In this document: positions 1 through 3,995 of the stretch, piece by piece | Position numbering within the stretch: position 1 is the stretch's first letter | How the letters are laid out: every line of letters starts with the position of its first letter | DNA from: Alphaproteobacteria bacterium | Lineage (GTDB): Bacteria; Pseudomonadota; Alphaproteobacteria; Rhodobacterales; Rhodobacteraceae | Assembly: GCA_003694465.1 (NCBI GenBank) | Contig: RFKM01000001.1 | Span: 1 to 5,814 of the forward strand | Length of the DNA stretch: 5,814 nucleotides | Direction: 5' to 3' | Position numbers and translations under genes: made by a program | Notes under the pieces: generated by a model | Databases searched by the model: none | Told to the model about the DNA's origin: nothing | The model's input: the letters and a program-made list of their open reading frames with translations, nothing else

Positions 1-683
1 AGATTGCCGCCTTCGCCCGCCTGCGCCGGGTCGATGCCTTGCAGGCCGAGGCCGAGCGCGCGGCGGCCCATGACGACCTCGACGCCGCCCGGCGCGTGAC
101 CGGCCGGCTCAAGCGCCTTTACGGCGGGCGCGAGGAGATGCGCTGGGGGCTTGAGCGTTTTTCTGCCCGCGAAGACGAGATCTTCGACGCCGACGGCCTG
201 CTCGGCCTTGCCGAAACCGAGCTGCTGGCGCCGCTCGATGCGCGCGCGACGGAAGAAATCGAGGCCGCGGCAAGGCAGGTGACGACGATCACCGCCATCG
301 TGCCGCTTGCCCTTGCCGACCTTGCCACCGCCCTTTCGGCCAACCTCCGGATGATCCGCCGCATCGCCGAGATCTATGGCGGGCGCGCCGGGCTTCTCGG
401 CTCGTGGCGGCTGACCCGGGCGGTGCTGACCCATCTGGTGGCGACGGGCGCGGTGGCGGTGGGCGACGATCTGATCCACTCGCTCGCCGGCGGCTCGGTT
501 CTGTCAAAACTCAGCCGCCGCTTCGGCGAGGGGGTTGTGAACGGCGCGCTCACCGCCCGCGTCGGCGTCGCGGCGATGGAGGTCTGCCGGCCGCTGCCCT
601 TTGTCGTGAAGGCGCGGCCGGGCGTCACGGCAATCCTGCGCCGCGCGCTGGCGGGGGTGTTCGGGGCGGGCAGGGGCGCGTGA
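1..683 (+). CDS. TIGR01620/YcjF-family membrane protein (DUF697), 3' part
   Basis: This is the C-terminal 226 residues of a gene that begins outside the window; the frame is open from base 3, so the TTG at 39 is not a credible start. The visible part opens with a charged, helical, Ala/Arg/Glu-rich stretch (about residues 1-90). It continues with the DUF697-type hydrophobic segment VTTITAIVPLALADLATAL (93-111), a second hydrophobic region ending in GDDLIHSLAGG (about 134-164), and the block GEGVVNGALTARVGVAAMEVCRPLPF, whose ends are near residues 175 and 200. The LTARVGVAAMEVCRPLP portion is the strongest match to YcjF-type proteins as I know them. The family sits in the inner membrane, usually next to the stress-linked GTPase-like YcjX, so a ycjX-like gene may lie upstream (inference). 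Its biochemical role is poorly defined. The stop TGA is at 681-683, 7 bases before the putative ileS promoter. Confidence 0.85.
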   Translation, partial: IAAFARLRRVDALQAEAERAAAHDDLDAARRVTGRLKRLYGGREEMRWGLERFSAREDEIFDADGLLGLAETELLAPLDARATEEIEAAARQVTTITAIVPLALADLATALSANLRMIRRIAEIYGGRAGLLGSWRLTRAVLTHLVATGAVAVGDDLIHSLAGGSVLSKLSRRFGEGVVNGALTARVGVAAMEVCRPLPFVVKARPGVTAILRRALAGVFGAGRGA

Positions 684-690
684 TGCGGGC

Positions 691-719
691 TTGCCCAAAC
701 CGGGCCGGGGCAATATACC
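691..719 (+). promoter_or_regulatory. Putative sigma70-type promoter of the ileS leader
   Basis: A -35-like TTGCCC (691-696, 4 of 6 to TTGACA) and a -10-like TATACC (714-719, 4 of 6 to TATAAT) are separated by exactly 17 bases. AATATA around 712-717 is one of few A/T-rich spots in this GC-rich gap. The expected start point, 6-8 bases past the -10, falls in a C run with A727 as the best purine. A727 is the first base of the ATG of the Ile-rich mini-ORF, so the transcript may begin with that start codon. This is a sequence-match call only. Confidence 0.5.
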
Positions 720-726
720 CGCCCCC

Positions 727-777
727 ATGATGCACCTGCCCGCGATCATCATTCGAATTACCAGCCCGGCGCTCTGA
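727..777 (+). CDS. Putative Ile-rich leader peptide upstream of ileS (16 aa)
   Basis: The mini-ORF ATG ATG ... CTC TGA encodes MMHLPAIIIRITSPAL. Codons 7-9 and 11 are Ile (ATC, ATC, ATT, then ATT after a CGA Arg), so four of five consecutive codons call for Ile. ATT makes up half of its Ile codons but only 2 of 39 in ileS. There is no Shine-Dalgarno before it; instead the predicted transcription start coincides with its first base, consistent with leaderless translation, as known for the alphaproteobacterial trpL of Sinorhizobium. The stop codon sits in the loop of a GC hairpin (766-792). The likely role is to sense charged tRNA-Ile and tune ileS expression by attenuation. That role is inferred from position and codon content. 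A chance ORF of 16 codons is possible, but the Ile cluster directly before ileS makes it less likely. Confidence 0.55.
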   Translation: MMHLPAIIIRITSPAL

Positions 778-792
778 CACACGAGCCGCCGG
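766..792 (+). promoter_or_regulatory. GC hairpin overlapping the leader-peptide stop codon
   Basis: CCGGCG (766-771) pairs with CGCCGG (787-792), and CTC (772-774) pairs with GAG (783-785), leaving a single bulged C at 786. This gives a nine-pair stem with an 8-base loop TGACACAC that starts with the leader stop codon. No T-run follows, so it is not a standard intrinsic terminator. A ribosome stalled on the Ile codons at 745-759 would cover or crowd the 5' arm, which would make the fold depend on translation. The pairing is read directly; the regulatory role is inferred. Confidence 0.45.
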
Positions 793-863
793 ACAAAGGC
801 GTATGGACCCCGCGCCGCCCTTCTCCTAAAACCCGACCGATCCATTCGCAAAGGACGCCCGAA
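778..863 (+). promoter_or_regulatory. ileS 5' untranslated leader, C-rich and G-poor
   Basis: These bases separate the leader-peptide stop from ileS. They contain the 3' arm of the stop-codon hairpin, a weak downstream hairpin (GGCGT 798-802 with GCGCC 812-816, one G-T pair), and an alternative four-pair fold (CGCC 787-790 with GGCG 798-801) that excludes both. Bases 807-850 hold 22 C and 6 G in 44 positions, a skew of the kind Rho factor prefers. The stretch ends in the ileS ribosome binding site. No T-box elements and no T-run terminator are seen. An 8-codon ATG-to-TAA frame at 803-829 is probably incidental. Confidence 0.4.
850..855 (+). promoter_or_regulatory. Shine-Dalgarno site of ileS
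   Basis: AAAGGA lies 8 bases before the ATG at 864. It is the only good purine-rich site nearby and supports that start. Confidence 0.8.
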
Positions 864-3770
864 ATGTGCGCCGAAACGCCCGACTACAAGACCACCCTGA
901 ATCTGCCCGAAACCGATTTCCCGATGCGCGCCGGCCTGCCGAAGCGCGAGCCCGGCTGGCTCGAACGCTGGGAGAAGATCGGTGTTTATGACCGTCTGCG
1001 CGAAAAGCAGGGGCGCGAGCCCTTCATCCTGCACGACGGCCCGCCCTATGCCAACGGCCACCTGCACATCGGACACGCGCTCAACAAGATCCTCAAGGAC
1101 ATGATCGTGCGCAGCCAGCAGATGATGGGGCGCGATGCGCGCTACGTGCCGGGATGGGACTGCCACGGCCTGCCGATCGAATGGAAGATCGAGGAGCAGT
1201 ATCGCGCCAAGGGCAAGGACAAGGACGAGGTGCCGGTGATCGACTTCCGGCAGGAGTGCCGGCGCTTTGCCGAGGGCTGGATCGACATCCAGCGCGAAGA
1301 GTTCAAGCGCCTTGGCGTCACCGGCAACTGGGCCAACCCCTACCTGACGATGGATTTCCACGCCGAGGCGGTGATCGCCGAGGAATTCATGAAGTTCCTG
1401 ATGAACGGCACGCTCTATCAGGGCTCGAAGCCGGTGATGTGGAGCCCGGTGGAAAAGACCGCCCTTGCCGAGGCCGAAGTCGAATACCACGACCACAAGA
1501 GCCACACGATCTGGGTGCGCTTCCCGGTGGTGGCCGGGGGCGAGGGCGATCTGGCCGGCGCCGCGGTGGTGATCTGGACGACGACGCCATGGACGATCCC
1601 GCAGAACCGGGCGGTGGCCTACAACCCCGAGATCGCCTACGGGCTCTACGAGGTGACCGGCACCGGCGAGAATTCCGCCGCGCGGGTGGGCGAGAAGCTC
1701 CTGCTGGCAGACAAGCTCGCCGAAGAGGTGTTCAACGCCGCGCGCGTCGACAACAGCCAGTTCCGGCGCCTGCGTGCGGTGTCGGCCGAAGAGATCGGGG
1801 CGCTGGTCTGCGCCCATCCCTACCGCGGCATCGAGGGCGGCAAGGGCGAGTGGGACTATGACGTGCCGGTGCTCCCCGGCGAGCACGTGACCGACGACGC
1901 CGGCACCGGCTTCGTCCATACCGCCCCCAGCCACGGCGATGACGACTACCAGCTCGGGCTGAAATTCGGCCTCGAGATGACCTACAACGTCGAGCCAGAC
2001 GGCACCTACCGGGCCGATCTGCCGGTGTTCGGCGGCGAGGCGATCATCGAGCCCGACGGCAAGGAAGGGCCGGCGAACGTCTCGAACATCAAGGCGCTGG
2101 CCCGGCAGGGGGCGCTGCTCGCCAAGGGCAGGCTGACCCATTCCTACCCCCATTCCTGGCGCTCGAAGGCGCCGCTGATCTATCGCAACACCCCGCAATG
2201 GTTCGTGGCCATCGACCGCAAGCTCGACGACGGGATGGGCGAATACGGCGATACCATCCGCACCCGCGCCCTCACCTCGATCGACAAGCTGGTGAAATGG
2301 ACGCCGCCGTCGGGGCGCAACCGGCTGCATGCGATGGTCGAGGCCCGGCCCGACTGGGTGCTCTCGCGCCAGCGCGCCTGGGGGGTGCCGCTGACCTGCT
2401 TCACGAAGAAGGGCGCGCGCCCGACCGACGACGATTTCCTGCTGCGCAATCCCGAGGTCAACGCCCGTATCACCGCCGCCTTCGAGGAGCGCGGCGCCGA
2501 TGTCTGGTATGAAGAGGGCTTCAAGGAGCGGGTGCTGGGCGGCATCGTCAACCCCGACGATTACGAGCAGGTCTTCGACGTGCTCGACGTCTGGTTCGAT
2601 TCGGGCTCGACCCATGCCTTCGTGCTGCGCGACCGCCCCGACGGCAGCCCCGACGGCATTGCCGACCTCTACCTCGAGGGCACCGACCAGCACCGCGGCT
2701 GGTTCCATTCCTCGCTTCTGCAGGCCTGCGGCACCAAGGGGCGCGCGCCCTATCGCGGCGTGCTCACCCACGGCTTCACCCTCGACGAGAAGGGGATGAA
2801 GATGTCGAAGTCGCTGGGCAACACCATCGTGCCCGAGGAGGTGACGAAACAATACGGCGCCGACATCCTGCGCCTGTGGGTGGCGCAGTCGGATTTCACC
2901 AACGACCAGCGGATCGGGCCGGAAATCCTCAAGGGCACCGCCGACAGCTACCGGCGCCTGCGCAACACCATGCGCTTCATCCTCGGCAACCTCGCCGGCT
3001 TCGACGCCGCGCGCGAGACGGTCGACGCCGCCGAGATGCCGGAACTCGAGCGCTGGGTGCTGCACCGCCTCGCCGAGCTCGACGAAACCGTGCGCAAGGG
3101 CTATGCCGCCTACGATTTCCAGGCGACCTTCCAGGCGGTTTTCAACTTCGCCACCGTCGACCTTTCGGCCTACTATTTCGATATCCGCAAGGATGCGCTC
3201 TATTGCGACCGGCCCGATTCGCTCTCGCGGCGGGCGGCGCGCACGGTGCTCGACATTCTCTTCCACCGGCTCACCACGTGGCTCGCGCCGGTTCTGGTGT
3301 TCACCATGGAAGAGGTCTGGCTCGAACGCTATCCGGGCGAGGAGTCCTCGGTGCATCTGGTCGATTTCCCCGAAACCCCGGCGGCCTGGCGCGACGCGGC
3401 GCTGGCGGAAAAATGGGCCGGCATCCGCGCCGCCCGCCGGGTGGTGACGGCGGCGCTGGAAGTGCAGCGGCGCGAGAAGGTGATCGGTGCCTCGCTGGAG
3501 GCGGCGCCGGTCGTGCATGTGCGCGACGCCGCCCTTGCCGATGCGCTGCGCTCGGTGAACTTCGCCGATGTCTGCATCACCTCGGACATCGTCGTCACCA
3601 CCGACCCGATGCCGAACGAGGCCTTCCGCCTGCCGGAAGTCGAAGGGGTGGGCGTCGTCTTCGAGAAGGCCGAGGGCGAGAAATGCCAGCGCTGCTGGAA
3701 GATCCTGCCCGATGTCGGCGCCCATCCGCACCCGGGCACCTGCGCGCGCTGCGACGACGCCCTGAGCTGA
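864..3770 (+). CDS. ileS: Isoleucine--tRNA ligase (isoleucyl-tRNA synthetase)
   Basis: This cytoplasmic class Ia enzyme charges tRNA-Ile with isoleucine using ATP and hydrolyses mischarged Val-tRNA-Ile. The 968-residue product is complete and slightly longer than the roughly 940 of E. coli IleRS. The catalytic Rossmann fold shows PPYANGHLHIGH (60-71; HIGH at 68-71) and KMSKS (646-650). WVLSRQRAWGVPL, DVWFDSGSTH and EGTDQHRGWFHSS lie between them. The inserted CP1 editing domain has the threonine motif TTTPWT (from T239) and GTGFVHTAPSHGDDDY, with H352 and D361 matching the editing His and Asp of E. coli. A helical anticodon-binding domain follows. The C-terminus has a zinc site formed by C941, C944, C960 and C963. 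It is the bacterial (IleRS1) type by length and zinc tail. The start is supported by AAAGGA 8 bases upstream. Its own promoter and the Ile-rich mini-ORF upstream suggest feedback by tRNA-Ile charging (inference). No frameshift or missing key residue is seen. Confidence 0.98.
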   Translation: MCAETPDYKTTLNLPETDFPMRAGLPKREPGWLERWEKIGVYDRLREKQGREPFILHDGPPYANGHLHIGHALNKILKDMIVRSQQMMGRDARYVPGWDCHGLPIEWKIEEQYRAKGKDKDEVPVIDFRQECRRFAEGWIDIQREEFKRLGVTGNWANPYLTMDFHAEAVIAEEFMKFLMNGTLYQGSKPVMWSPVEKTALAEAEVEYHDHKSHTIWVRFPVVAGGEGDLAGAAVVIWTTTPWTIPQNRAVAYNPEIAYGLYEVTGTGENSAARVGEKLLLADKLAEEVFNAARVDNSQFRRLRAVSAEEIGALVCAHPYRGIEGGKGEWDYDVPVLPGEHVTDDAGTGFVHTAPSHGDDDYQLGLKFGLEMTYNVEPDGTYRADLPVFGGEAIIEPDGKEGPANVSNIKALARQGALLAKGRLTHSYPHSWRSKAPLIYRNTPQWFVAIDRKLDDGMGEYGDTIRTRALTSIDKLVKWTPPSGRNRLHAMVEARPDWVLSRQRAWGVPLTCFTKKGARPTDDDFLLRNPEVNARITAAFEERGADVWYEEGFKERVLGGIVNPDDYEQVFDVLDVWFDSGSTHAFVLRDRPDGSPDGIADLYLEGTDQHRGWFHSSLLQACGTKGRAPYRGVLTHGFTLDEKGMKMSKSLGNTIVPEEVTKQYGADILRLWVAQSDFTNDQRIGPEILKGTADSYRRLRNTMRFILGNLAGFDAARETVDAAEMPELERWVLHRLAELDETVRKGYAAYDFQATFQAVFNFATVDLSAYYFDIRKDALYCDRPDSLSRRAARTVLDILFHRLTTWLAPVLVFTMEEVWLERYPGEESSVHLVDFPETPAAWRDAALAEKWAGIRAARRVVTAALEVQRREKVIGASLEAAPVVHVRDAALADALRSVNFADVCITSDIVVTTDPMPNEAFRLPEVEGVGVVFEKAEGEKCQRCWKILPDVGAHPHPGTCARCDDALS

Positions 3771-3816
3771 GCCCCGCGCGCGGCGCGCACCCGCCGGCCT
3801 GCCCGGCAAGCGGGGC
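3771..3816 (+). terminator. GC-rich hairpin directly after ileS, possible terminator
   Basis: GCCCCGC (3771-3777), starting at the base after the ileS stop, pairs with GCGGGGC (3810-3816). Inside it GCCGG (3793-3797) pairs with CCGGC (3803-3807) around a 5-base loop. No T-run follows, so termination would be weak or need other factors. In DNA this GC-rich some such pairing is expected by chance. Confidence 0.3.
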
Positions 3817-3841
3817 GCGGCGCCCGAGCGGCGAGCGGCCA

Positions 3842-3853
3842 AAGCGCGCGCTT
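3842..3853. repeat. 12-base perfect palindrome in the ileS-transporter gap
   Basis: AAGCGCGCGCTT is its own reverse complement. It lies in the 238-base gap 3771-4008, which otherwise holds GC-rich inverted repeats, no RNA gene and no convincing promoter. It could be a protein-binding site, or chance in a sequence dominated by GC dinucleotides. Confidence 0.3.
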
Positions 3854-3995
3854 GCCCGGCGCGGCGCACCGGCCTAAGCAGGTCTGGTCAAATCGTCTTT
3901 CGCCGGGGCGCAACACGGCCCGGGCAGGCGCACGCCGTGCCTTGGCAGAAGCGCGCTCCGGTCGCGGGCGCCGCGCCGGCCTGGCCGAGCGCGAT

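Follow-up and report, generated by a model that had tools for sequence, protein, structure and literature searches.

Does a reading frame of 16 codons in front of the gene for isoleucyl-tRNA synthetase (ileS) monitor the supply of isoleucine and, if so, which of its parts reads the signal? The question is raised by a stretch of 5,814 nucleotides (here called the window) from an alphaproteobacterium of the family Rhodobacteraceae, whose source assembly is a draft of 380 contigs that is 74% complete. An earlier note on this DNA proposed that the frame at 727-777 is an attenuation leader peptide controlled by charging of tRNA-Ile. The sequence agrees with its description: among five consecutive codons of the frame four encode Ile, ATT being used twice, and the frame ends 86 bases ahead of the ileS ATG at 864. 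Its count of the Ile codons of ileS is correct as well (37 ATC and 2 ATT, i.e., 39). The 51 bases of this upstream open reading frame (uORF) are read as ATG ATG CAC CTG CCC GCG ATC ATC ATT CGA ATT ACC AGC CCG GCG CTC TGA. The element is larger than the frame itself, as a promoter (691-719) and two hairpins, referred to as P1 (765-792) and P2 (798-816), belong to it too. The features discussed below are the following, with the basis of each assignment in brackets.

691..696, + strand: -35 element TTGCCC (5 of 6 matches to TTGACC, 17-nt spacer to the -10 element)
714..719, + strand: -10 element TATACC (7 nt ahead of the ATG at 727)
727..777, + strand: uORF MMHLPAIIIRITSPAL and stop, predicted leaderless leader peptide (sequence, conservation, promoter spacing)
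745..753, + strand: Ile run ATC ATC ATT, lineage-specific (family counts)
754..760, + strand: core CGA-ATT-A, i.e., Arg codon, putative sensor codon and A (109/110 family leaders)
765..774, + strand: 5' arm of P1, CCCGGCGCTC, the final uORF codons (CCCGG in 109/109 family leaders)
775..777, + strand: uORF stop TGA, within the P1 loop (in-frame stop count)
783..792, + strand: 3' arm of P1, GAGCCGCCGG, with one bulged C (pairing in 62 sequences)
798..816, + strand: hairpin P2, GGCGT..GCGCC (two covarying pairs in 51 sequences)
850..855, + strand: ileS Shine-Dalgarno sequence AAAGGA (sequence)
864..3770, + strand: ileS, isoleucyl-tRNA synthetase, 968 aa (Pfam tRNA-synt_1 5.5e-123, Anticodon_1, zf-FPG_IleRS)

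Besides ileS, the window contains the final part of a DUF697 gene and a gene for an EamA transporter. On the minus strand an open frame of 1121 codons (504-3869) lies antisense across ileS; such frames are typical for coding DNA rich in GC, and this one is unlikely to be a gene.

Conservation and start of the mini-ORF

The family set comprises 110 ileS upstream regions, 108 of them distinct (two pairs of rows are identical), from the window, 29 genomes and 80 genome records. The 29 genomes come from a search of 198 family genomes, where loci were obtained from the best 30, among them the window, and the 80 records are the best 80 out of 593 that were confirmed. Upstream of ileS, 109 of the 110 sequences (107 of the 108 distinct ones) contain the 3' core of the uORF; the pattern used as an anchor, CGAAT[TA]A-N(3-5)-CCGG, itself demands CGA, so that the constancy of this codon is to be read as 109/110 leaders and not as a separate count. 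In the exception (L097) AGC-ATT-ATT replaces CGA-ATT-A, and a single anchored leader among the 109 has ATA in place of ATT. CCCGG lies exactly four bases past the core in 109/109, though the anchor permitted three spacings. An in-frame ATG is present within 60 nt in 106/109 elements, two of the remaining three (L069, L076) fit a GTG start, and an in-frame stop follows at most 33 nt from the core in 104/106 leaders. In the ileS genes of this family set just 1.5% of the Arg codons are CGA (111/7,343) and 10% of the Ile codons are ATT, so that codon bias does not account for the core. The core with CCCGG occurs somewhere in the genome in 101/110 family genomes, not always at ileS, compared with 8 for a reversed control pattern. 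The mini-ORF is thus real, beyond chance.

The residues ahead of the core vary across the family, and this includes the Ile run on which attention had first been focused. Directly before CGA, 52 of 108 family uORFs have three Ile codons, 3 have four, 21 have one or two and 32 have none, the last group including several Paracoccus and Tabrizicola records; the core persists in uORFs of this group. The Ile run is therefore neither a conserved nor an essential sensor. Loss of the Ile codons in relatives with an intact ileS had been named as an outcome that would speak against a leader peptide; the run is indeed lost in many of them, while the CGA-ATT pair is kept within the family.

The position of the promoter bears on how the uORF is translated. 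A -10 element was scored as TAnnnn with at least four matches to TATAAT, 5-9 nt ahead of the start. In the frame of the core this rule holds in 104/109 family sequences, compared with 3/218 in the other two frames; the gap between the -10 element and the start is 6 or 7 nt in 97 of the 104, and 94 of 103 scored sequences have 4 or 5 matches to TTGACC at -35. Outside the family the spacing fits 21/29 ileS elements (1/58 in the other frames), but just 3/16 elements before leuA, 2/16 before genes for a small ACT-like protein and 0/7 before kinase genes (see below). A generic sigma-70 scan reported no promoter at 691-719 or elsewhere in the window. With the -10 element placed as for a start at the AUG, the RNA probably begins at the AUG or 1 nt before it, and the uORF is probably leaderless, as predicted from sequence.

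Hairpins past the core and the output step

In P1 the final codons of the uORF are paired with the segment just past its stop. In 62 sequences 91.5% of the cells are paired and three pairs have changed on both sides; these are 62 of 69 candidate rows, the omission of seven rows with odd or long P1 ends (L034, L052, L059, L064, L068, L081, L109) raising the pairing figure somewhat. Covariation is modest and the base of P1 is nearly invariant. The hairpin forms in the predicted folds of the window, where the outermost pair (C765-A793) is broken, and P1 together with the core folds better than shuffled sequences (z -2.86); for the entire leader (727-863) no advantage over shuffles is seen (z -0.26).

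P2 was recognised in 65/109 family leaders. Of 51 aligned sequences, 36 have C-G and 15 have U-A as the third pair of P2, with zero mismatch, and the inner pair is A-U in 27, G-C in 18, C-G in 2 and other in 4; 35 cells are compensatory, and slid controls show nothing comparable. As these 51 of 59 rows were chosen by a pattern that demands both arms of P2, a free test is provided only by the coupling of C-G with U-A and by the inner pair (A-U/G-C). The 3' arm of P1 could pair instead with the 5' arm of P2 (2:3 pairing) in 97.1% of the cells. Where P2 switches to U-A, this pairing is maintained as G-U; it shows no covariation of its own. P1, P2 and the compatible 2:3 pairing may form a set of mutually exclusive hairpins, in that part of the family in which P2 was recognised.

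Such a set recalls classical transcription attenuation, in which a ribosome stalled at the Ile run would free the 3' arm of P1 to pair with the 5' arm of P2 as an antiterminator and would block P2 as the terminator, as in the trp and ilv leaders. The covariation of P2, the retention of 2:3 pairing and the run of three or four Ile codons in 55/108 family uORFs all agree with this scheme, and a short uORF with cognate codons is present as in the trp/ilv attenuators. The GC-rich stem with a T run before the gene, however, is missing. P2 has no T run, and a hairpin followed by a T run, resembling a terminator, is found in just 5/188 leaders (about 2 are expected from shuffles), and three or more of these five hairpins are P1 itself; the 44-member non-family ileS group in this count, as in the counts of stops and base composition, includes family genomes fetched later, the strict outside set being 29. 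No intrinsic terminator was found on the + strand of the window between 400 and 1200, and this element was rejected as the output. Because P2 is in addition recognised in only part of the family and the Ile run is missing in 32/108 uORFs while the core persists, attenuation, which the earlier note had envisaged, is unlikely in its classical form.

Alternatively, control could be exerted on translation of ileS. Here, the 5' arm of P2 (GGCGT) would pair with an ACGCC located just past the ileS Shine-Dalgarno sequence (AAAGGACGCC), and the ribosome on the leader would decide whether that arm is free. GGACGCC or GGATGCC is found near the start in 31/65 leaders with P2 as compared with 5/44 without it, and 8/13 uORFs ahead of the ACT-like genes extend over the main start codon. 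On the other hand, 34 of the 65 leaders with P2 have neither motif, the counts include related sequences, and the minimum-energy folds of the window form P2 instead. For the ileS leader we consider such a translational switch improbable.

Signals other than hairpins were also looked for around P1. A T is found 11 nt past P1 in 43 of 84 elements, whereas the highest count at any position among 300 shuffles is 37; the 84 include 17 unclassified elements that were added manually, and in a few elements the P1 end is misplaced. The signal around a Y-G pause motif was diffuse, with only the T at +11 standing out, and a precise motif of this kind was discarded. The stretch past P1 is rich in C in 94 family ileS leaders (C 0.40, G 0.23), a composition that may be general to 5' leaders. 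ATTCG, the complement of CGAAT in the core, occurs within 40 nt past P1 in 12/65 Ile elements, mostly outside the family (3.3 expected), and RTTCG is found at an identical offset in six Ile elements; with 12 of 65, ATTCG is too rare to be a general part. An Rfam search of the window to E 5 gave no match, T-box included, and a search of 12 loci of the class to E 0.5 gave a tRNA alone; a known RNA family, including the T-box riboswitch, was therefore set aside.

Distribution of the cassette and its second codon

A covariance model built from 62 ileS leaders was run on a sample of 289 genomes of the class and matched 90 of them at E ≤0.05, a set whose weak end surely includes chance matches. In 200 genomes of the phylum, 21/21 matches at E ≤0.001 came from Alphaproteobacteria, the genomes outside the class among the 200 being uncounted. 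The 27 matches outside the family for which loci were available all have an in-frame uORF encoding R-I-x-x-P-[AV] or, in one case, R-L-x-x-P-A. Downstream lie ileS (12 loci, ten family codes), an ACT-like gene (11), leuA (1) and an AAA_33 kinase gene (1), and two are unassigned; further ileS elements are present in another family (f174, four loci read). The assignment as ACT-like is based on two members, with matches to the acetolactate synthase small subunit at E 7e-4 (below the cut-off) and to ACT_5 at E 0.09, the remaining genes being assigned by motif likeness. In 8 of 13 uORFs of the ACT copies the stop lies past the gene's start, i.e., the uORF runs over the start codon (L171, L176, L182, L186, L187, L190, L276, L277). 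Another 30 places with CGAATTA-N4-CCCGG comprise 5 at ileS, 4 at a kinase gene (L139, L146, L148, L159) and 21 that are coding-like or unrelated; L153, L157 and L116 share one coding stretch, which we take to be rho.

Several side observations concern these other genes. A P-loop kinase gene (GK/RxA[SA]GKST) with a CGA-ATT uORF is found in several alphaproteobacterial families (L194, L237, L239, L251 and L259, in addition to the four above); these uORFs end in R-I-x-x-P-A or P-V followed by a stop. The Pfam assignment to AAA_33 was tested for one member, L194, and we know of no link between this kinase and isoleucine. Three genomes of a single genus have two Ile cassettes spaced by about 180-200 bases (L238, L240, L244). 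Further downstream, the loci L168, L192, L234 and L241 encode an [LM]S[YF]LDHI-like protein, presumably Nudix-like.

The single covariance-model match ahead of leuA reads CGA-CTT-A, i.e., with a leucine codon after CGA. A sample of 385 genomes of the class was searched for CGA-[C/G/T]TT-A with the CCCGG hairpin. The 23 raw matches, as compared with 17 for a reversed control pattern, say little as counts alone, and it is their location that is informative: leuA lies downstream in 17 rows, which represent 16 distinct places and nine family codes and without exception have CTT; three rows in two genomes precede an ACT-like gene, and the other three are unrelated. In the latter two genomes (L276, L277) a single uORF carries tandem CGA-CTT and CGA-GTT cores ahead of the ACT-like gene. 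About 1.3 kb beyond this tandem, on the same (minus) strand, a third cassette, of the Ile type, stands ahead of another gene.

Two tests in which loci were chosen by the protein alone avoid the bias of these patterns. For leuA, 30 loci (from a sample of 142 genomes of the class) were screened with 36 Arg-Leu codon pairs allowed at 4-8 nt from the hairpin arm, in a frame with ATG. Ten matched, all with CGA-CTT, the next base being A in nine and G in one. For ileS, 29 loci, 28 of them outside the family (a sample of 115 genomes; one locus had just 89 nt upstream), were screened with 18 Arg-Ile pairs at 4-8 nt; again ten matched, all with CGA-ATT-A. The 29 ileS loci gave no Leu-type match, and Val pairs gave two, both without the CGA core. 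The cassette is absent at 19/29 ileS and 20/30 leuA loci, i.e., it is patchy; where present, its codons are fixed and follow the downstream gene. Conservation of the ORF upstream of ileS, which had been suggested as a check, holds within the family (109/110); outside it, many ileS loci are devoid of the cassette.

Among the fetched loci with the hairpin, pooled, ATT is found at 152 ileS, 12 ACT and 7 kinase genes and at no leuA, CTT at 16 leuA and 2 ACT genes, GTT at 2 ACT genes, and neither CTT nor GTT at ileS. Fisher's test of this association gives p 1e-22, for rows that are non-independent and chosen by patterns; 15 of 239 rows were excluded for want of the hairpin pattern, and 33 of the other 224 are unclassified, some of these being plainly coding and some good elements missed by the patterns. 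Four genomes (G238, G383, G461, G477) carry CGA-ATT before ileS and CGA-CTT before leuA. A general pattern for other sensor codons matched 147/385 genomes of the class sample, among the matches listed, mostly in a manner resembling coding noise, and Phe-like (L274), Thr-like (L229) and TTG (L230) matches had no fitting gene; such codons were rejected.

From these data it becomes apparent that the ileS and leuA copies are the same cassette with the isoleucine and leucine codons exchanged. This swap is, at the level of sequence, the best evidence for a sensor of amino-acid charging and, together with the conservation, gives strong support to the earlier proposal of a leader-peptide gene for ileS. 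It also bears on the notion that CGAATTA is a binding site for a protein on RNA or DNA, or an RNase site, with an incidental reading frame. In line with such a site, the third base of ATT and the next A hardly vary though the code permits change. The promoter spacing, however, is specific to one frame, an in-frame stop soon follows the core (104/106), and the change between ATT, CTT and GTT tracks the amino acid of the gene, which leaves this explanation little room. A chance ORF, suggested by nothing but a length of 16 codons, is refuted by core conservation, fixed spacing and the frame-specific promoter.

Proposed mechanism and comparison with known systems

The reading that we prefer, with a probability of roughly 60%, is that 727-777 is a conserved, likely leaderless leader-peptide gene in which CGA-AUU senses a shortage of charged Ile-tRNA and raises expression of ileS. 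RNA polymerase would start at the AUG and ribosomes would load at once. With Ile-tRNA charged, the ribosome would run to the stop inside P1 and leave, allowing P1 to refold. With Ile-tRNA uncharged, it would wait while CGA occupies the P site and AUU the A site; the A-site codon is proposed as the sensor because the codon that changes with the gene directly follows CGA. From CGA to the end of CCCGG the distance is 16 nt. The leading edge of a ribosome lies about 15 nt past the first P-site base. A ribosome waiting at this position would cover exactly CCCGG and keep P1 open. Within that part of the family that includes the window, the P1 3' arm released in this way could base-pair with the P2 5' arm. 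As long as P1 is open, more of the ileS mRNA would be made at full length.

As intrinsic terminators are nearly absent, the output step after P1 is one that we infer. P1 is most likely a pause hairpin that favours termination, probably of the Rho type; we lean towards a pause that exposes RNA to Rho because of the scarcity of terminator-like hairpins (5/188), the T at +11 and the C-rich stretch. Hairpin pauses have a spacing of about 11 nt, as has the T past P1. For most of the ACT copies, the uORF over the gene's start codon suggests a translational output, or interference at that site.

The choice of codons is likely to be a tuned slow spot, as CGA is a poorly decoded Arg codon that depends on inosine-A wobble, and NTT is read by G-U wobble. 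Three observations fit less well, one of them being the AAA_33 kinase, for which no tie to isoleucine is known. Ribosomes waiting at the Ile run (745-753) would halt short of CCCGG and P1. Moreover, if the amino acid alone counted, ATC would equal ATT, yet the last T of ATT and the next A are near-fixed, and part of the constraint must therefore act on RNA or on a detail of decoding.

A broader and more tentative proposal, to which we assign somewhat less than even odds, is that CGA-NUU-A with the CCCGG hairpin is a portable one-codon sensor in which NUU alone sets the amino acid, which is re-aimed by one base and stacked in tandem, functions with no intrinsic terminator, and defines an isoleucine regulon that includes the ACT-like protein and the kinase. 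The slow Arg codon would prime the ribosome, the next codon alone would specify the amino acid (AUU for Ile, CUU for Leu, GUU for Val), and the fixed 4-nt gap would let a single waiting ribosome hold the hairpin open. If true, the exchange of a single codon between genes amounts to a natural codon-swap experiment on the way in which ribosomes perceive a shortage of an amino acid, and the question of why CGA ahead of a hungry codon matters could be addressed in a clean system; the one-base difference between ATT and CTT makes the sensor idea directly testable. The proposal would also explain part of the control of branched-chain amino-acid genes and of isoleucyl-tRNA synthetase in Alphaproteobacteria, which to our knowledge mostly lack T-boxes, and would tie the small ACT-like protein and the AAA_33 kinase, both poorly known, to isoleucine supply.

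The earlier note knew of no described ileS leader in Alphaproteobacteria, but one is already in print. A study that used ribosome profiling to map the CDSs of Caulobacter crescentus, and that reported 375 leaderless mRNAs, gives CCNA_03934 the name of ileS leader CDS (PMC4117421). CCNA_03934 is like the mini-ORF in being a small ileS leader CDS in an alphaproteobacterium. In the parts of that paper that concern it, it serves only as a negative control, its sequence, codon core, hairpin and regulation being undescribed there; in our own reading it was detected by footprints (PMC4117421). In the open full-text literature the locus tag was found in PMC4117421 alone. Searches of the same literature listed no account of the cassette; subscription papers were outside this scope, and one on proteobacterial attenuators (Vitreschak 2004, as cited in PMC4117421) may list alphaproteobacterial leuA or ilv leaders.

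Among better-described leaders, uORFC-8-2, the cysS leader of Rhodobacterales, is a synthetase uORF with cognate codons from the order to which the window also belongs, with 145 examples; it differs from the ileS leader in its tandem Cys codons and its intrinsic terminator with a U run (PMC8632094). The window element has neither of these, nor does it precede cysS, and the main text of PMC8632094 makes no mention of ileS. The trpL/rnTrpL attenuator of Sinorhizobium meliloti likewise has a leaderless leader-peptide ORF starting at the AUG and senses an amino acid, but this is tryptophan, and the attenuator also yields an sRNA (PMC10117765). The ilvBN leader of Caulobacter, like proteobacterial ilv leaders, shares the Ile/Val codons and the link to branched-chain amino-acid genes; there, a stalled ribosome blocks a Rho-independent terminator, and the codons are in tandem rather than in one fixed pair (PMC4117421). 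Further comparisons come from another phylum. In Actinobacteria, leuA and ileS are controlled at the RNA level by the LEU element, with a Leu-codon leader peptide, and by a translational T-box, but through a pseudoknot or by tRNA binding, and classical attenuation of actinobacterial leuA was doubted by the authors (PMC1262725). The Corynebacterium ilvB-II uORF is conserved, rich in Ile, Leu and Val codons, precedes a branched-chain gene and was tested with reporters; it is unlike the ileS leader in its strong terminator stem with a U run and its several codon positions (PMC10272879).

In trpL/rnTrpL we know of no CGA-NTT core. The ileS element would work as a leader of the ribosome-gated type that differs from classical attenuators in failing the terminator test, in its fixed two-codon core and in its swappable sensor codon.
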